NCBI GenBank assembly: GCA_029862925.1
Contig: JAOTWJ010000016.1
Coordinates: forward strand, 1 to 37,836
Direction of reading: 5' to 3'
DNA length: 37,836 nucleotides
Origin: Gemmatimonadota bacterium
GTDB lineage: Bacteria; Gemmatimonadota; Gemmatimonadetes; Gemmatimonadales; GWC2-71-9
Of the stretch, positions 8,711 through 33,861 are shown one piece after another; positions within the stretch are counted from its first letter, which is position 1; each line of letters opens with the position of its first letter. The notes beneath the pieces are model-generated. The model was not told where the DNA came from. It did not search any database and worked only from the letters and a program-made list of their open reading frames with translations. The position numbers were made by a program, and so were the translations under genes.

Positions 8711-8997
8711 AGTACCTCCATGGTGTCCAGGATGTAGGCCTTGAGGCCCTCTTCGGGACCGCGCTGCGCCCGCAGCGACTTGAGGGCGTCACACAGGCCG
8801 GCACAGTCGCCCTCCGACAGGGCCACGAAATACAGCGTGCTCGACCCGGGGAAGGCACGCGTGCCCAGTTTGCGGCCGGTCACGCCCTTCCCGAGCACGT
8901 TGGGGAACGCGCTGTAGCCGCGTACCGCGTGGTCTTCCAGCAGCCGCTCGACGTCGTCCGCGTGATCCGCGTCCACGAAGATCAGGAGCACTTTCAT
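8707..8997 (-). CDS. PII-like small protein associated with an RND efflux pump
   Basis: 96 aa MKVLLIFVDADHADDVERLLEDHAVRGYSAFPNVLGKGVTGRKLGTRAFPGSSTLYFVALSEGDCAGLCDALKSL; overlaps the RND stop codon (ATGA) and the DUF2892 start. Confidence 0.7.
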   Translation of the reverse strand: MKVLLIFVDADHADDVERLLEDHAVRGYSAFPNVLGKGVTGRKLGTRAFPGSSTLYFVALSEGDCAGLCDALKSLRAQRGPEEGLKAYILDTMEVL

Positions 8998-11900
8998 CGG
9001 CTCATCTCGTAGTAGAGCAGGGGAATCGCGACCAGTGTCAGCGCGGTGGACACCACGGCTCCGCTGATCAGCGCAATGCCGAGCCCCTGGAAGATGGGAT
9101 CGGAGACCATCACCCCGCCGCCGATCACAACGGCCGCGGCCGTGAGGATGATCGGTCGGGACCGGATCAGACCCGACGCGATGACGGCGTCGCGCACCGA
9201 ACGCCCGCGCGCGCGGCCCAGCTCGATGAAGTCCACCAGCAGAATGGAATTGCGGACGATGATCCCGGCGAGCGCGATCATGCCGATCATCGACGTGGCG
9301 GTGAAGAACGCGCCGCTCGCGGCATGCGCCGGGAGGATGCCGATCAGGGTGAGCGGAATCGGCGCCATGATCACGAGCGGGACCGAGAAGGACTGGAACC
9401 ACGCCACCACCAGCACGTAGATGAGCACGAGCACGGCGGCGAACGCGATGCCGAGATCGCGGAACACCTGCACCGTGATCTGCCATTCGCCGTCCCACAC
9501 GAGGAACGGCCGTTCGGTGAGCGTGGGCGAGGCGGCGTAGTAGACGGCGAATTCGTCGCCGATCGCCGCCAGATCGTCCCGCATCGCCAGCATCGCGTAG
9601 GCCGGGCTCTCCAGCCGGCCGGCGACGTCGCCGGTCACGTACACGACCGGGCGCAGGTTCTTGCGGAAAATCGGTGTCCATCCGGCGACACTGTCGAGTG
9701 TGGCAAGCGATCCGAGCCGCCGCGCGCCGCGCGGCGTCGCCACCGGGAGCGCCGCGAGGTCGCCGATCCCGGCCGTCGCCGAATCCGGCAATGCCACGCG
9801 GATGGGCACCGGTTCCGCGGCCCGCTCGTCGTGTAGCAGCCCGGCGCTCGCCCCGCCCATGGCCGCCGCGATCGTCTGCGCAACGTCTCGCGTGGTCGTT
9901 CCCGCCCGCAGCGCCTCGGCCTGGGCCACGGCCGCCCGGACCTGCGCGTGCGGCGCCGCCACCGACCAGTCGACGTCGACCACGCCCTCGGTCCGTTCGA
10001 ATACCGCCTTGACGCGCTCGGCCGCGGCGATCTGCGCCTCATAGGTCGGACCGTAGACCTCGGCCGTGAGGGTCGAGAACACCGGCGGCCCCGGCGGGAT
10101 CTCGGCGACCTTCACGGCGGCGCCGTACGCCCGGGCAAGGGAGTCGACGATCGGTCGGACGCGCAGGGCGATCGCGTGGCTCTGCGCCGACCGCTCGTGT
10201 TTGGGCTGGAGGTTCACCTGCACGTCGGCGACCGTTGGACCACGCCGCAGGAAATAGTGCCGCACGAGTCCGTTGAAGTTGAAGGGCGCGGCAATGCCGG
10301 CATACGTCTGCACGTCGTGAACCGCCTCGTCCCGTGCCACGGCGCGCGCGAGCGCCTGCGCGGCTTCCGCCGTGCGTTCGAGCGACGTCCCTTCCGGCAT
10401 GTCCACGATCAGCTGGAATTCGCTCTTGTTGTCGAACGGCAGCATCTTCACCGTCACGAGCTTGAGCGGCACGAGCAGCACCGACACCAGCAGCAGGCTC
10501 ACCACCCCGCCGTACGCAGCCAGGCGTCGCGGGCGGCTGGCCAGCAGTCCCTCCAGCAGCCCGCGGTACCAGCGCGCGAGTCGCCCGTCGGGCAGCGCCT
10601 CCTCGGTGCCGCCCCCGACCGGGTGGGCGGCGTGGCCCTTGAGCAGCCGGACGGCCAGGTACGGTGTCACGATGAACGCGACGCCGAGCGAGAAGACCAT
10701 GGCGACGGACGCGCCCACGGGAATGGGCCGCATGTAGGGACCCATCAGGCCCGAGACGAAGGCCATCGGCAGGATGGCCGCGATCACCGTGAGCGTCGCG
10801 AGGATCGTGGGGTTCCCGACCTCGTCCACCGCGATCACCGCTGCCTCGTCGGCATGACGCTGTCCGAGGCCGATGTGGCGCGCGATGTTCTCCACCACGA
10901 CGATGGCGTCGTCGACGAGGAACCCGATCGCAAAGACCAGTGCGAAGAGGGTGATGCGGTTGAGGGTGTAGCCATACAGCCGGTAGACCAACAACGTGAG
11001 CGCCAGCGTGACGGGCACCGCCACGAGCACGACCACGGCTTCGCGCCACCCGAGGGTGGCCCACACCAGCACCGCGACCCCGAGCGTGGCGATCAGGATG
11101 TGGAGCAGGAGTTCCCGCGACTTCTCGGTGGCCGTCTCGCCGTAGTTCCGGGTGACCGTCAGGCGGACGTCGTCGGACAGCAGGACGCCCCGCAGCTGCT
11201 CCACCCGGTGGAGGACCTGGTCGGCAATCGTCGCGGCGTTCGTGCCCTCGCGCTTCGCGATCGCGAGTGTGACGGCGGGCTCGAAGGCGGTCCCCCTGCC
11301 GGGTAGAAACGCGACGTACTGATCCGGCTCCGCCGGTCCGTCGGTCACGGTGGCCACATCGCGCACCCGAATGGCGCGCTCGCCCTGCACGGCAACCACG
11401 ACCTCCCGCACCTGGTCCACATCACGCAGCAGGTGGCCAACCCGCACGGGGATGGACCGGTTCCCGCCGAGCAGGGCGCCCGCGGGGAGTTCGGCGTTGG
11501 CCACGCCCAGGGCGTGGAGCACGGCGGCTGCGGAGAGACCGCGCACTGCGAGGGCCTGCGGATCGAGCGTGACGCGCACCTCGCGTGGGGCGCCGCCCAC
11601 GAGCCAGCTTTCCGCGACGTCGGGAATCCGCTTCAGCTCGGCGCCCAATTCCGCGGCCTGCTGGCGCAGGAGGTAGCCATCGCCGGCGTCCGCGCCGCCC
11701 GAGAACGTGAGCGTCAGAATCGGCACCTCGTTGATGCCGTGGAGCGTCACGAACGGCGGAGTGGCACCGGCGGGCGCCCGGTCCGCGGTCGCCAGCAGCT
11801 TGCCGTACAGGCGCGTGAGCGCCAGTTCGGGTTCGGTGCCGACCACGAAACGGGCCGTGATCAGCGCGCCGTCGGCCTGCGCGATGCTGTAGAGGTACTC

Positions 11901-12146
11901 CACCCCGGGGACCTCCCACAGGGCACGCTCGAGTGGTTCCACGACGCGGCGCTCGACTTCCCGCGGCGATGCTCCCGGGAGGCCGACTGCCACGTCGATC
12001 ATCGGGACCCGGATCTGCGGCTCCTCCTCGCGCGGCGTGGTGAGCAACCCCCCGACCCCGGCGGCGAGCGAGGCCCCGATCAGGAGCGGCGTGAGTTTCG
12101 AGTTGAGGAATCGCTGGGCGATACCGCCCGATAGGCCGGTCTTCAC
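8994..12146 (-). CDS. Efflux RND transporter permease subunit (AcrB/CusA superfamily)
   Basis: GTG start at 12146 overlapping the MFP stop (GTGA). REEEPQIRVPMIDVAVGLPGASPREVERRVVEPLE, FLVDDAIVVVENIARH, final TM block ALTLVAIPLLYYEMSR. Confidence 0.93.
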   Translation of the reverse strand: MKTGLSGGIAQRFLNSKLTPLLIGASLAAGVGGLLTTPREEEPQIRVPMIDVAVGLPGASPREVERRVVEPLERALWEVPGVEYLYSIAQADGALITARFVVGTEPELALTRLYGKLLATADRAPAGATPPFVTLHGINEVPILTLTFSGGADAGDGYLLRQQAAELGAELKRIPDVAESWLVGGAPREVRVTLDPQALAVRGLSAAAVLHALGVANAELPAGALLGGNRSIPVRVGHLLRDVDQVREVVVAVQGERAIRVRDVATVTDGPAEPDQYVAFLPGRGTAFEPAVTLAIAKREGTNAATIADQVLHRVEQLRGVLLSDDVRLTVTRNYGETATEKSRELLLHILIATLGVAVLVWATLGWREAVVVLVAVPVTLALTLLVYRLYGYTLNRITLFALVFAIGFLVDDAIVVVENIARHIGLGQRHADEAAVIAVDEVGNPTILATLTVIAAILPMAFVSGLMGPYMRPIPVGASVAMVFSLGVAFIVTPYLAVRLLKGHAAHPVGGGTEEALPDGRLARWYRGLLEGLLASRPRRLAAYGGVVSLLLVSVLLVPLKLVTVKMLPFDNKSEFQLIVDMPEGTSLERTAEAAQALARAVARDEAVHDVQTYAGIAAPFNFNGLVRHYFLRRGPTVADVQVNLQPKHERSAQSHAIALRVRPIVDSLARAYGAAVKVAEIPPGPPVFSTLTAEVYGPTYEAQIAAAERVKAVFERTEGVVDVDWSVAAPHAQVRAAVAQAEALRAGTTTRDVAQTIAAAMGGASAGLLHDERAAEPVPIRVALPDSATAGIGDLAALPVATPRGARRLGSLATLDSVAGWTPIFRKNLRPVVYVTGDVAGRLESPAYAMLAMRDDLAAIGDEFAVYYAASPTLTERPFLVWDGEWQITVQVFRDLGIAFAAVLVLIYVLVVAWFQSFSVPLVIMAPIPLTLIGILPAHAASGAFFTATSMIGMIALAGIIVRNSILLVDFIELGRARGRSVRDAVIASGLIRSRPIILTAAAVVIGGGVMVSDPIFQGLGIALISGAVVSTALTLVAIPLLYYEMSR

Positions 12147-13138
12147 GGCAGGATGCGCTCCCCGGGCTCGAGTCCGCTCAGCACCTCGACCCGGTCGTCG
12201 GGGAGCGTGCGCCCAATGCGGACCCACCGAACCTGCTCGCCATCACCCTGCACGACCCGGACACCCGTGAGTTGGCCCCGCCGCACGACCGCGGACGCGG
12301 GTATGGCGATCCCCGCCCGGACGCCGGCCGGCACGAGCCCCGTGACCGACACACCGGTGGGCCAATCGGCCGGGACGTCGACCCGCACCTCGACCGTCCG
12401 CGTCATCGGATCGGCGCCCCCCGCGACGGCGCGCACCGAACCATCGGTCGCCTGCCCGTCGGCGGTGAGTCGGATGTGGGTTCCGGGTGCGAGCCCGCGG
12501 GCCAGATCCGCCGGCACCGCGAGCACGGCCTCCCGCGGCCCGGCGCTCTCGAGCACGAGCAGCGGCATGCCGGGATTCGCGAGGTCGCCGGGGTCGACGG
12601 TCCGTGCGGCGACCACGCCATCGAACGGCGCGGCGATGCGCGCGTAGCCGGCGGCGGCGTCCACCTCGGCCAGCGTGGCCCGGGCCACGGCCAGATGCGA
12701 CGCCGCTTGCGCGAGCCCGAGGTGGGCCTGATCGCGCTGCACCTGCGACACGACGTCCATCGCGAAGAGGGTATCCATCCGCGCCGCGTGCCGAGCGGCC
12801 TCGTCATGCGCCGCGCCGCCGGCCGCCACGGCCGCCTCCGCCTTGGCGCGATGAGCGGCGATGTCGTCGAGGCCCAGACGGATCAGCGTCTGCCCCGCGC
12901 GCACCGCCGAGCCCAACTGTACCGGCACCTCGGTCACCCGGGCCATCAATCGCGTCGAAATCTCCGCCCGGTGGCGGGCGGTGATGGTGCCCGCCACGGG
13001 CAGCAACACCGGTAGCGACTCGGCCCGGACGAGCAGGCCCGTCGGCACCTCGCGGGGCGTCGCCGGCGGAGTGGAGTTTCCATCGGCGCACGCCAAGGTC
13101 CCCGCCAGGGTGAGCGTCAGGACGGCAAGCGGTCTCAT
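12143..13138 (-). CDS. Efflux RND transporter periplasmic adaptor subunit
   Basis: Lipoprotein-like N-terminus (LAGTLACADG), GTITARHRAEISTRLMARVTEVPVQLGSAVRAGQTLIRL..., YARIAAPFDGVVAARTVDPGDLANPGMPLLVLE. Confidence 0.92.
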   Translation of the reverse strand: MRPLAVLTLTLAGTLACADGNSTPPATPREVPTGLLVRAESLPVLLPVAGTITARHRAEISTRLMARVTEVPVQLGSAVRAGQTLIRLGLDDIAAHRAKAEAAVAAGGAAHDEAARHAARMDTLFAMDVVSQVQRDQAHLGLAQAASHLAVARATLAEVDAAAGYARIAAPFDGVVAARTVDPGDLANPGMPLLVLESAGPREAVLAVPADLARGLAPGTHIRLTADGQATDGSVRAVAGGADPMTRTVEVRVDVPADWPTGVSVTGLVPAGVRAGIAIPASAVVRRGQLTGVRVVQGDGEQVRWVRIGRTLPDDRVEVLSGLEPGERILP

Positions 13139-14445
13139 TGGTCGTGCACTCCGTAAGCGAATTCGAGCGCCGCCTGCGCGATCAGCAGATCGCGGCGCGC
13201 AGTGAAAAAGTTCACGGTCGCGTTCGTGGCCGCGGCCTGAACGTCGAGGAGTTCGGTGATCGGGGAGGTCCCGGTGCGGTAGCGCGCCTGCGCCTGCTCG
13301 AGCGCCACCCGTGCCTCCCGGTCAGCCCGGGCGGCGACGGCGGCGCCGGCGCGCGCGGCGCGGAGCCAGCGCTCGGACTCGAGCACGTCCACGTCGGCCT
13401 GGCGACGGGCGGCCTCCAGCCGCGCCTGCGCGGCCTCTCGCTCAGCCGTCGCCCGCCGCACGGCGGCGACCCCGCCCAACGCGGGGAACACGTTCCACCG
13501 GAGCGCCACCCCCACCGTCCAGTCCCCGCTGCCGTCGCTCCACGGGGCGTCGTGCCCGTGGTAGGAGAGAGCGCCGAACGCGCCGAGCTGCGGGAATTGG
13601 GCGGCCCAGGCGCTCTTCCGTCCCAGGTCGGCCGCCTCCAACGCCGCCGTGAGTGCCCGCAGATCACCGCGCTTCTCGACGGTGCACCCGCCGGTGTCGC
13701 CGCACTGCACGGGCTGCTCGACCGTGAGCGAGTCGGTGAGCGCAAGCGGGGTCCCCTCCGGGAGCGCGAGCATTGCGCGCAGCCGCGAGAGGGCGTTTTC
13801 GGCCTCCGCCCCGGCGGCTAGCCGCCGGACTTCGATGTCCGCCGCGTGAAGCCCCGCCAGCCGCGCGTCCAGCCCCGTCACCATCCCCTGCGCGTGCAGG
13901 GCCTCGGCCTGTCGAACGTGTGCCCGGGCGGCCGCGAGCGCGGTGTCCAGCGCGCCGAGGCGCCGGCCGGCGAGCTGGGCCTCCAGATATGCGCGCGTGA
14001 CCATGAACGCCGTACCGCCGCCGGCCCGCTCGGCTCCGGCCGCGGCCGCACCGGCCGCCTGCCGCGCCGCCGCGTACCCGAACAGCCCTTCGGGAGCGAA
14101 CAGGGGTAACTCGGCCACTGCCATGCTCGTGAACCCGCCGAAGGCGGCCGGACTGTTGAGCGCGTCAAGCGCGAGATCGGAGCCGGCAAAGACGCCCTGC
14201 CGGAGCTTCAGGCCGAACACCGCCACCGGGTCCGTGGTGCGAACCCCCTGCACCTCGGCCCTGATACTGGGGAGGAAAGCCCGGGAGGCCTCACGCGGGA
14301 GCTGCGCCTTACCCCGCGCCGCCGCGCGCTCGGCGAGCAGCGCCGGGTTGTGGCCCAGCGCTCGCACGACCGCGTCGTCCAGGGTGAGGACGACGGTGTC
14401 CTGAGGCGCGGCGGCGGCAAGGGATGCTAGAATAGCAATAATCAT
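13135..14445 (-). CDS. TolC family outer membrane efflux protein
   Basis: VVLTLDDAVVRALGHNPALLAERAAARG..., ARVALEQAQARYRTGTSPITELLDVQAAATNATVNFFTARRDLLIAQAALEFAYG. Confidence 0.9.
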   Translation of the reverse strand: MIIAILASLAAAAPQDTVVLTLDDAVVRALGHNPALLAERAAARGKAQLPREASRAFLPSIRAEVQGVRTTDPVAVFGLKLRQGVFAGSDLALDALNSPAAFGGFTSMAVAELPLFAPEGLFGYAAARQAAGAAAAGAERAGGGTAFMVTRAYLEAQLAGRRLGALDTALAAARAHVRQAEALHAQGMVTGLDARLAGLHAADIEVRRLAAGAEAENALSRLRAMLALPEGTPLALTDSLTVEQPVQCGDTGGCTVEKRGDLRALTAALEAADLGRKSAWAAQFPQLGAFGALSYHGHDAPWSDGSGDWTVGVALRWNVFPALGGVAAVRRATAEREAAQARLEAARRQADVDVLESERWLRAARAGAAVAARADREARVALEQAQARYRTGTSPITELLDVQAAATNATVNFFTARRDLLIAQAALEFAYGVHDQ

Positions 14446-14474
14446 ATATTACGGATCATAAAAAAACCTCACCA

Positions 14475-14780
14475 CTACATGTCACAGGTCCGGATGCAAT
14501 CGAGGATGTGGTGGACCTTCTGATCCTGCACCCGATAGTGCACGTGGACGCCTTCGCGCCGCGCACTGACCACATTCGCCCCGCGCATCTTGGCCAAGTG
14601 CTGCGACACGATGGCCTGTGGCAGGTTCAGCTTGTCCTGGATGTCCGACACGGTCGCCTCGCCGCCCTCGAGCACCTCCACGATCTTCAGGCGCTCCGGG
14701 TGGCCCAGCAGCTTGATGATCTCGGCGGCCCGCTGGAGCACCTCGGGGGTGACCGAGCGGACGAGTTGTTTGCGTGCCAT
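14475..14780 (-). CDS. ArsR/SmtB-family transcriptional regulator
   Basis: EIIKLLGHPERLKIVEVLEGGEATVSDIQDKLNLPQAIVSQHLAKMRGANVVSARREGVHVHYRVQDQKVHHILDCIRTC. Confidence 0.9.
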   Translation of the reverse strand: MARKQLVRSVTPEVLQRAAEIIKLLGHPERLKIVEVLEGGEATVSDIQDKLNLPQAIVSQHLAKMRGANVVSARREGVHVHYRVQDQKVHHILDCIRTCDM

Positions 14781-14791
14781 GAGCTTAGTGT

Positions 14792-14815
14792 ATAGCGATA
14801 CTTCTATGTGCGCAA
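14792..14815 (-). promoter_or_regulatory. Candidate promoter/operator of the ArsR-efflux operon
   Basis: Minus strand reads ttgcgc-acatagaagtatcgc-tatac with an ATAG-N8-CTAT imperfect dyad (14792-14807) directly upstream of the ArsR start. Confidence 0.35.
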
Positions 14816-14831
14816 GGGGGACCCCCGAAAA

Positions 14832-14862
14832 CGCCCCGCCCCCGCCTGGATTGGGCGGGGCG
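14832..14862 (-). terminator. Intrinsic terminator downstream of gyrB
   Basis: Minus strand: cgccccgccc-(11 nt)-gggcggggcg followed by tttt; 10-bp perfect GC stem plus short U-tract. Confidence 0.7.
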
Positions 14863-14889
14863 GGGGGAGGCACGGGGCTGGGGGAGAGG

Positions 14890-17022
<2,133 letters not shown>

Positions 17023-19006: not shown

Positions 19007-19170
19007 TGGGAGGAAAACTAATCCGCCGTCGCCGCGGTGGGGGGACGGGTGGCGCCACGCGGGTCTGGGTGCGAACTTGGGAACCTGGCCCGCGTCGGGC
19101 CGTATCACGTCCAGCGGGGTGCGGCTCGCGGAGCCCCCGAATCCCGGCACGCCACGAGGAGGCATACCTG

Positions 19171-19638
19171 ATGTCCCGTTCCTGGACCGCGCTTGGCCTC
19201 GTCGGCCTGGCGCTCACCGCCGGCACGGTCGCTGTGACCGGCGGCTGGACGCAGGCCGTCAAGCCCACGGTAACGGTGTACAAGACCCCCACGTGAGGGT
19301 GCTGTTCCGAGTGGGTGGTTCACCTGCAAAAGCACGGATACAAAGTCGAGGCGCGTGACGTGGACGAGCCGGCCCTCATGGACATGAAGGCCGCGTCCCG
19401 CGTCCCGGGGGAGTTGGAATCCTGTCACACGGCCGTCGTGGACGGGTACGTGGTCGAGGGCCATGTCCCCGCGTCCGATATCGACCGGCTGCTCAAGGAA
19501 CGGCCATCCGTGGCCGGGCTGGCGGCCCCGGGGATGCCCATCGGGTCACCCGGCATGGAGCAGGGCGATCGGCGCGATCCCTACGCGGTGCTCACGTTCG
19601 ATCGGGAGGGACGCACGACCGTGTTCGCGCGTCACTAG
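19171..19638 (+). CDS. DUF411 family protein, putative selenoprotein (in-frame TGA codon 42 read as Sec)
   Basis: ATG at 19171 with SD-like gaggaggc. MSRSWTALGLVGLALTAGTVAVTGGWTQAVKPTVTVYKTPT-(TGA 19294-19296)-GCCSEWVVHLQKHGYKVEARDVDEPALMDMKAASRVPGELESCHTAVVDGYVVEGHVPASDIDRLL... Frame continues without other stops. The TGA sits on the first Cys of the DUF411 PT-CGCC motif. The track splits it into 19006..19296 and 19315..19638, same frame. Confidence 0.85.
19299..19335 (+). promoter_or_regulatory. Candidate bacterial SECIS (bSECIS) hairpin
   Basis: Inner helix GTGGGTG (19311-19317) / CACCTGC (19321-19327), 7 pairs including two G-U, apical loop GTT starting with G, 21 nt after the TGA. Outer helix GTGCT (19299-19303) / AGCAC (19331-19335). 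Confidence 0.65.
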
Positions 19639-31381: not shown

Positions 31382-32620
31382 ATGCCGCGACGCGTCTGGC
31401 GGTGGCTGCGGGAGTTCTGGGACGACGTGCGGGAGAGCATGGACGCCAGCCTCCTGGGCATCGCGCGCTTTTTCGGACTGCTCTACGGGCCGATCGACCG
31501 CTCGCTCCGGATCGACCAGGCGTTGAAGAAGGCGCTCGCCTACCGCCTGGCCCCGCATGTGACCTGGCGCCACGCCCTCGGCGGCATCACCTACCTGCTG
31601 CTGATGGTGCTCGTCGTGACGGGCGTGCTCTTGGCGTTCTACTATCGCCCGTCGGCCCAGGAAGCCCACGCCAGTATCCGGTTCATCGTGTCCGAGGCGC
31701 CGTTCGGCTGGCTGTGGCGCGATCTGCACGTCTGGGCCGCGAGCCTGATCGTGGTGGTGCTGCTCGCCCATATGGCGCGGGTCTTCTTCACGGCCGCCTA
31801 CAAGCCGCCACGCGAGACCAACTGGCTGCTCGGCTTCGGGCTGCTGGTCGTGGTCCTGGCGTTCGGTGCGTCGGGGTACCTGCTCCCGTGGGATCAGTGG
31901 GCGTACTGGACCGTCACCGAAGCGCTCGCCGTCATCGGCCGCGTGCCGCTGCTCGGGTGGTTCACGGATCTGGTCAAGGGCGACGACATTGTCTCCGGCG
32001 CGACCCTGAGCCGCTACTTCGCCATTCACGTCATCCTCCTCCCGTGGCTCCTGTTCGCGCTGGTCGGGCTGCATTTCGGCCTGGTGCGCCGCCACGGCGT
32101 GGCCCCGCCGGTCGAGCCGCCGGCGGCCGCGAAGGGCGGGGAGCCCTTCTACCCGAATCACCTCATGCGGCTGCTCATGGCCGCCGCCGTCGTGCTGGCG
32201 GTCGCCATCAGCGCGGCGGCGCTGTGGCCCCGCCCCGTGGGCCCCGTGGCCGATCCCGCCAGCCCGCCGGCGGCACTGGTGAGCACGTGGGTGGCGGTGG
32301 ATGTTTGGCGGGCATTGGCCCACTTCACCGGAGCAATCGGCATCGTGCTGTTCGGAGTGCTCGGGCTCGCGATGGCGGCCCTGCCGCTGTTCGACCGATC
32401 GCCCGAGCGACGACTCCGCCACCGGCCGGTGGCGGCGGGGCTGGGCATTGCGTTCTTCGCGGTGATCATCCTGGCGTGGGGGATGGGGCGCTGGCTCAAC
32501 GTGCGCACGACCAAGGAACCCGCATCCCAACCGGCGGCGGCCGCCACCGCGTCTCCTGTGGGCGGCCCGGCGGTCTTGGCACCGGCGGCTGAGCCGTCGA
32601 TTCCCCAGGAGGGCCGGTGA
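31382..32620 (+). CDS. Cytochrome b (b6-type heme-binding core, divergent C-terminal part)
   Basis: HVWAASLIVVVLLAH and HVILLPWLLFALVGLH paired heme ligands; GASGYLLPWDQWAYWTVTEALAVIGRVPLLGWFTDLVKGDDIVSGATLSRYFAIH typical of cyt b/b6. Confidence 0.88.
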   Translation: MPRRVWRWLREFWDDVRESMDASLLGIARFFGLLYGPIDRSLRIDQALKKALAYRLAPHVTWRHALGGITYLLLMVLVVTGVLLAFYYRPSAQEAHASIRFIVSEAPFGWLWRDLHVWAASLIVVVLLAHMARVFFTAAYKPPRETNWLLGFGLLVVVLAFGASGYLLPWDQWAYWTVTEALAVIGRVPLLGWFTDLVKGDDIVSGATLSRYFAIHVILLPWLLFALVGLHFGLVRRHGVAPPVEPPAAAKGGEPFYPNHLMRLLMAAAVVLAVAISAAALWPRPVGPVADPASPPAALVSTWVAVDVWRALAHFTGAIGIVLFGVLGLAMAALPLFDRSPERRLRHRPVAAGLGIAFFAVIILAWGMGRWLNVRTTKEPASQPAAAATASPVGGPAVLAPAAEPSIPQEGR

Positions 32621-33861
32621 CCCTCGTGCGCCCCTGGATAGCCCTCGGGGTGGTGGGGATGGCGGCCGCGCTGCCGGCGGACGCCCAGGTCCCGGCTCTG
32701 GGCATGGACTCGAGCTATGGGTGCACCGTGTGCCACGCGGAACACCGGCGCGCGTTCTTCACGGGCGTGCATGCCGAGCGCGGCATCCGCTGCCACGACT
32801 GCCATGGGGGGAATCCCACGGCGCTCGAACGACCGGCCGCGCACACGGGCCGATTCCTCGGGCACCCCACCAAGCGGCAGATTGCCACGTTGTGCGCGTC
32901 CTGCCATTCCGACCCCGACCGCATGCGCCAGTACGGGCTGCCCACGGGCCAGCTGGCCGAGCTCCACACGAGCCGCCACGGGCAGTTGCTCGAGCGCGGC
33001 AATCCGGACGCACCCACCTGCACCGACTGTCACGAATCCCACCTGATCCGCCGGACCACCGACGCGCGCAGCAACACGCATCCCTTGAACATCCCGGTGT
33101 TGTGCGCGCGCTGTCATACGGACCGGACGCTCATGGGCAAGTACGGACTGCGGACGAATGAGTTCGCGGAATTCGCGGCGAGCGCCCACGGGGTGGCGCT
33201 GTTCCAGCAAGAGAACTTCGCCGCCCCGACGTGTGTGGGGTGTCACGGATCCCACTCTGCCCTGCCGCCCGGGCTGACGCAGGTGACCGACGTCTGCGGC
33301 CATTGCCACACGCTCGTGCGCGATGCGTTCGCCCGTGGGCCGCACGGGCCAGTGGCGGCGCGCGGCGCCATGCAGGGGTGTCTCGCGTGTCACGGCAACC
33401 ACGCCACCGTCGTGGTGCCGTCCGACTCCTTGGCGGAGACGTGCACCAGATGCCACGCCGCGGGGACGGCGCAGGCGACCCTCGGCGTGCAGTTGGAAGA
33501 GCGGCTCGTGCGCGCCGAAGGCGAGCTGCACGAGGCGGAGGCCGCCATCGCGTCGCTGGTCCGGGCGGGTCGCGACGTCGTCGACGCGCGCCTGCGGCTG
33601 CGCACGGCCCGGACGGCCTACCTGCAGATCGCGCAGGTGGAGCACAGTCTCGACCTGGACGCGCTCGATGACCTCGGCTTGGTGGTGGCCACGGCCACGC
33701 AAGCGATCGGCGCGGCCGAGGAGTCGGCATTGGAGCAGCGTTGGGAGCACAAGCTGCTGCTCGTGCCCGTCTGGTTCCTCGCGTTGGCGGTCGTGGTGCT
33801 GGCCTGGTTCCGCCTCAGCGAGGCGCAGCGGCCGGCGGGACCCGAAGGGCGGTCCAGATGA
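32617..33861 (+). CDS. Nine-heme c-type cytochrome with C-terminal helical segment and TM anchor
   Basis: CTVCH, CHDCH, CASCH, CTDCH, CARCH, CVGCH, CGHCH, CLACH, CTRCH; GTG start overlaps the cyt b stop; C-terminal LLLVPVWFLALAVVVLAWF TM. Confidence 0.9.
   Translation: MTLVRPWIALGVVGMAAALPADAQVPALGMDSSYGCTVCHAEHRRAFFTGVHAERGIRCHDCHGGNPTALERPAAHTGRFLGHPTKRQIATLCASCHSDPDRMRQYGLPTGQLAELHTSRHGQLLERGNPDAPTCTDCHESHLIRRTTDARSNTHPLNIPVLCARCHTDRTLMGKYGLRTNEFAEFAASAHGVALFQQENFAAPTCVGCHGSHSALPPGLTQVTDVCGHCHTLVRDAFARGPHGPVAARGAMQGCLACHGNHATVVVPSDSLAETCTRCHAAGTAQATLGVQLEERLVRAEGELHEAEAAIASLVRAGRDVVDARLRLRTARTAYLQIAQVEHSLDLDALDDLGLVVATATQAIGAAEESALEQRWEHKLLLVPVWFLALAVVVLAWFRLSEAQRPAGPEGRSR

Follow-up and report, generated by a model that had tools for sequence, protein, structure and literature searches.

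In known selenoproteins, selenocysteine (Sec) takes the place of a motif cysteine. CopG is a periplasmic thioredoxin-like protein that contributes to copper resistance, and it binds a tetranuclear copper cluster through a CxCC motif and two methionines (PMC7558416). Sec itself has been proposed or suspected as a metal ligand in the SO_0444 Cu/Zn efflux transporter, in a CopZ-like (2Fe-2S) protein, in SaoB/SaoC and in MbdU (PMC13188914). The gene described here lies in a window of 37,836 nucleotides, the whole stretch of DNA analysed, from a draft genome of Gemmatimonadota, and it encodes a Sec-containing variant of DUF411/CopG that departs from the standard members of the family.

The gene and its homologues

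A sequence-only reading of the window had proposed an open reading frame broken only by one TGA, which would replace the first motif cysteine of DUF411, and both points were confirmed. Codon 42 is the sole in-frame TGA (Table 1), and the protein obtained by reading through it matches PF04214 (DUF411) with 98.1 bits (E 2.3e-28; gathering score 27). Residues 41-45 read TUGCC, the TGA being the first Cys of the CxCC motif; a test of the protein for CxCC therefore returned UxCC, with the other two cysteines present. The motifs CHT and GMPIGSPGME are found at residues 85-87 and 121-130, respectively, and the hydrophobic N terminus predicts an export signal or anchor at about residues 1-30.

Table 1. 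Features of the Sec-containing DUF411/CopG gene, in window coordinates
Feature	Position	Strand	Basis
GAGGAGG, Shine-Dalgarno-like	19156..19162	+	Sequence; 8 nt 5' of ATG
Sec-containing DUF411/CopG gene, 155 aa (ATG 19171) plus TAG stop (19636-19638)	19171..19638	+	Pfam, PDB sequence match, structure model
In-frame TGA, Sec42, first Cys of CxCC	19294..19296	+	ORF reading, homologue comparison
Cys44 and Cys45 codons (TGC TGT)	19300..19305	+	Invariant in all Sec forms
bSECIS-like hairpin: 5' arm 19311-19317, loop GTT 19318-19320, 3' arm 19321-19327	19311..19327	+	Folding, pairing comparison
Cys85-His86	19423..19428	+	Invariant in both Sec and Cys forms
Met122 to Met129 (MPIGSPGM), putative copper ligands	19534..19557	+	Conservation; ligand role from PMC7558416 plus inference

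Homologues were collected by a scan of genome contigs and by searching relatives and two phyla, and both states of codon 42 were found among them, the comparison that the earlier reading had put forward as a check. A cysteine codon occupies this position in 142 of 175 distinct homologous loci (114 TGC and 28 TGT), and TGA in the remaining 33, in each of which it is the only in-frame stop; the Sec form thus appears to exist in at least 32 species besides the host. The TGA forms occur in Gemmatimonadota, in Acidobacteriota including Vicinamibacterales, and in Rokubacteria (L031), and they appeared in 15 of the 42 DUF411-bearing genomes of an acidobacterial sample. Most of their hosts are uncultured MAGs, and two single-contig chromosomes (G235 and G375) are also among the TGA-form assemblies. 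Two genomes, G025 and G060, each carry one Sec and one Cys copy (L161/L168 and L170/L164, respectively), providing natural pairs for a comparison of the two forms. At G041:C26:12122-12337, DUF411 is matched weakly and in part by a stretch with TAG in frame, probably a decayed copy.

Sec and Cys forms are mixed in the protein tree, with 13 changes on the best tree against a mean of 31 when the states were shuffled, and its strongly supported branches force only two Sec/Cys changes. Since the 119 alignment columns are too few for that purpose, no number of origins is claimed. One Cys form (L188, in G610) from a genome that contains selA is nested in the acidobacterial Sec clade, a possible case of reversion from Sec to Cys.

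Fold, copper ligands and gene neighbourhood

The only match in a search of PDB sequences was 6wis (E 9e-34). A structure model calculated from 59 sequences with Cys in place of Sec (pLDDT 90) fitted the solved CopG structures 6wis and 6wje with an rmsd of 1.5 Å and 44% identity over the model, the TMt for 6wis being 0.91. All Sec forms share Cys44, Cys45, Trp48, Cys85, His86, His98, Met122 and Met129 without exception, so that the candidate copper ligands C44, C45, M122 and M129 are all kept; the two methionines, conserved in 33 of 33 Sec forms, are identified as probable ligands by their correspondence to CopG. Because homologous CopG binds copper through its CxCC motif and two methionines, Sec would stand at a copper ligand position. 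Hence a role of Sec CopG at a copper site, with copper binding deduced from CopG homology and fold, is the function towards which we lean.

Gene neighbourhood was uninformative in this respect, since no conserved operon around the Sec forms was found among 20 neighbours at other loci and 20 ORFs of the window. The neighbours vary, including kinases, citrate synthase and dehydrogenases among others, and an RND pump directly adjoins the Sec form at a single locus (L204). The copper role therefore rests on homology, a conserved copper operon not having been found around the Sec forms. The window itself holds, some 4-10 kb from the Sec gene and on the minus strand (8994-14957), genes for an ArsR-type regulator, an outer-membrane efflux protein, a CusB-like adaptor and an RND pump, a CusCBA-like set that may be a metal-efflux operon. 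On the plus strand, a cytochrome b gene followed by a multihaem cytochrome c gene (31382-33861) likely constitutes an electron-transfer operon.

The protein might instead be a selenol/thiol oxidoreductase, such as a glutaredoxin-like reductase or a peroxidase, in which Sec would serve as redox nucleophile together with Cys44 or Cys45. This reading, which we regard as unlikely, would agree with the thioredoxin fold and a weak similarity to Glutaredoxin and Uxx-star (13.5 bits with NF041212, below its cut-off of 66), with the failure to find conserved copper neighbours, and with the redox nature of most selenoproteins described so far (PMC13188914). However, CopG is by far the best structural match, and a plain oxidoreductase would have no need of Met122, Met129, Cys85 and His86, which all Sec forms possess.

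Decoding of the UGA

A search of the host's draft assembly, which has 3.49 Mb and is 90% complete, recovered all of selA, selB, selC and selD, whose absence from a complete genome would have told against the sequence-only reading. The tRNA-Sec scored 69 bits and was called SeC with anticodon tca by ARAGORN, selA reached 481 bits, and selB, cut by a contig end, reached 316 bits with its EF-Tu domains and SelB beta-barrel domain. The host selD (369 bits; L128, C45:1130-2062) contains an in-frame TGA of its own, with Sec in GAGUACK; it is a selenoprotein itself, and the tip of its downstream hairpin carries GGTG. Among the 33 genomes with TGA forms, selA was found above the cut-off in 30 and as a fragment in one (G068), two having none, versus about 54 of 101 Cys genomes by a hand count that left fragments out (Fisher p about 1e-5, an optimistic value since the genomes are related and not independent). 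One TGA genome without selA, G031, has a clear tRNA-SeC; in the assembly of another TGA genome, G066, neither selA nor a true tRNA-Sec was found.

A bSECIS-like hairpin behind the TGA had also been noted in the sequence-only reading; its two arms do pair, and its signal proved specific to the TGA forms as a group. Its folding was compared with that of synonymously recoded sequences. The element lies between 13 and 39 nt from the U of the UGA, and in the window the hairpin starts about 18 nt on. Two registers could be distinguished, one with arms at 18-24 and 28-34 and a three-base loop that is mostly GGN or GTN (20 loci, including the window), the other with arms at 15-22 and 32-39 (8 acidobacterial loci). 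Full pairing was seen in 21 of 33 Sec forms versus 4 of 142 Cys forms, and the mean folding z against synonymous recoding was -1.4 for Sec forms and 0.0 for Cys forms. The contrast between the Sec forms and the Cys forms of the two phylum surveys gave p 7e-9, and p 2e-5 over 16 clade means, the clades being drawn by hand from the tree; in the same folding comparison, the signal was gone in a control stretch downstream. At two loci, a G-C pair at the top of the stem is replaced by A-T (GTG..CAC to GTA..TAC), with the pairing kept and His changed to Tyr. Most Cys forms have Glu or Asp at codon 50, which lies in the loop, but Sec forms mostly have Gly or Val (GGN/GTN) there, and the RNA requirement appears to override the usual residue at this position. 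The hairpin would thereby reshape the protein and illustrate clearly how an RNA signal can constrain an amino acid.

Taken singly, the folds are less telling. The hairpin of the window alone is not significant (local fold p 0.23 against synonymous recoding). When a wider stretch of 48 nt was folded, the signal of many individual sequences fell below that of the local hairpin (p 0.42 for the window), and in three Sec forms (L118, L203 and L202) folding is poor where the hairpin would be expected. As many single-sequence folds are weak, that of the window included, the RNA argument holds for the group and does not prove the point for the window gene. An Rfam scan of the window gave no match.

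In the closest Sec pairs, dN/dS 3' of the TGA ranged from 0.15 to 0.47, and the downstream part is therefore under purifying selection. Given the conserved TGA, the Sec machinery, the RNA element and this selection, we conclude that the UGA at codon 42 is almost certainly decoded as Sec, the insertion itself being deduced from these lines of evidence. With the CopG form indicated by homology and fold, the window gene is very probably a genuine selenoprotein form of CopG.

It is highly improbable that the gene is a pseudogene in which a nonsense mutation ends a non-functional 41-residue peptide. A single base separates TGC from TGA and the host is a draft MAG, but TGA stands at this codon in 33 loci with no other stop, dN/dS past it is well below 1, and the hairpin and the Sec machinery are linked to it; an inactivating mutation, already thought unlikely from the window itself, appears even more so in the light of these loci. 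Just as improbable is that the UGA is read otherwise, by global reassignment or by near-cognate readthrough giving Trp or Cys, for which nothing specific speaks. Since TGA ends 8 of the 12 window genes checked, it is not globally reassigned, as the sequence-only reading had argued, and the position at a motif cysteine, the SECIS-like element and the co-occurrence with selA all point to Sec. The weakest explanation, a sequencing or assembly error at the TGA, could invoke the single-base difference and the draft state of the genome, but it is next to impossible with the codon recurring in 33 assemblies, single-contig chromosomes included, and the hairpin found mainly in TGA forms; recurrence in 33 distinct loci excludes such an error as well as a chance nonsense mutation.

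Proposed function and comparison with described systems

For the selenoprotein form of CopG we tentatively suggest that Sec might ligate a polynuclear copper cluster held by the protein. In Gemmatimonadota, Acidobacteriota and Rokubacteria, this exported Cu-selenolate centre and the Cys form would have replaced one another on at least two occasions. SelB and tRNA-Sec would decode the UGA under the direction of the hairpin, whose apical loop is placed about 25 nt from the U, and the mature, presumably exported protein would present a Sec-x-Cys-Cys site and two conserved methionines. Copper would most likely be bound as in CopG, with the selenolate replacing one thiolate ligand, and might be sequestered or have its oxidation state changed outside the cytoplasm. 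Selenium could contribute tighter binding of Cu(I), a lower pKa and reversible oxidation.

The sequence-only reading did not place DUF411 among the standard named selenoprotein families, and published inventories agree with it. The inventory published in May 2026 (PMC13188914), with 119 prokaryotic selenoprotein families, contains neither DUF411, PF04214 or CopG nor a UxCC motif; DUF411 is not listed by deep-Sep (PMC12013277), and no matching DUF411-based selenoprotein model was found in NCBIfam. Full-text literature searches yielded nothing for DUF411 with selenoprotein or selenocysteine, and no title bearing on a Sec CopG for CopG with selenocysteine; subscription journals and preprints lay outside these searches and an earlier report is possible. 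We class the Sec form of DUF411/CopG as a new selenoprotein family, and with it the prokaryotic selenoproteome gains a family tied by homology to copper handling, not to ordinary redox catalysis. The family is common and hidden, as standard gene callers either end the gene at the UGA or begin it beyond that codon. What selenium contributes at a copper site could be tested directly on the natural Sec/Cys pairs, among them those in which one genome has both forms.

Compared with CopG/CutG (DUF411, PF04214; PDB 6WIS and 6WJE), the window protein shares the whole domain with its thioredoxin-like fold, the position of the CxCC motif, both conserved methionines and the CHT motif. It differs in having Sec as the first Cys of CxCC, with the attendant need for selenium and a SECIS hairpin, in residue 50, which is altered to fit the loop of the RNA, and in the lack of a directly adjoining copper operon. 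The Uxx-star/glutaredoxin-like selenoproteins (NF041212 and NF041114) likewise carry Sec for the first Cys of a thioredoxin/glutaredoxin-fold motif, possibly as a metal ligand, but they form a different family, without the DUF411 part and with no UxCC motif listed. The SO_0444 transporter, the CopZ-like protein, SaoB/SaoC and MbdU are, like the protein proposed here, metal-handling selenoproteins, whereas their domains are unrelated to DUF411 and their listed motifs are others.
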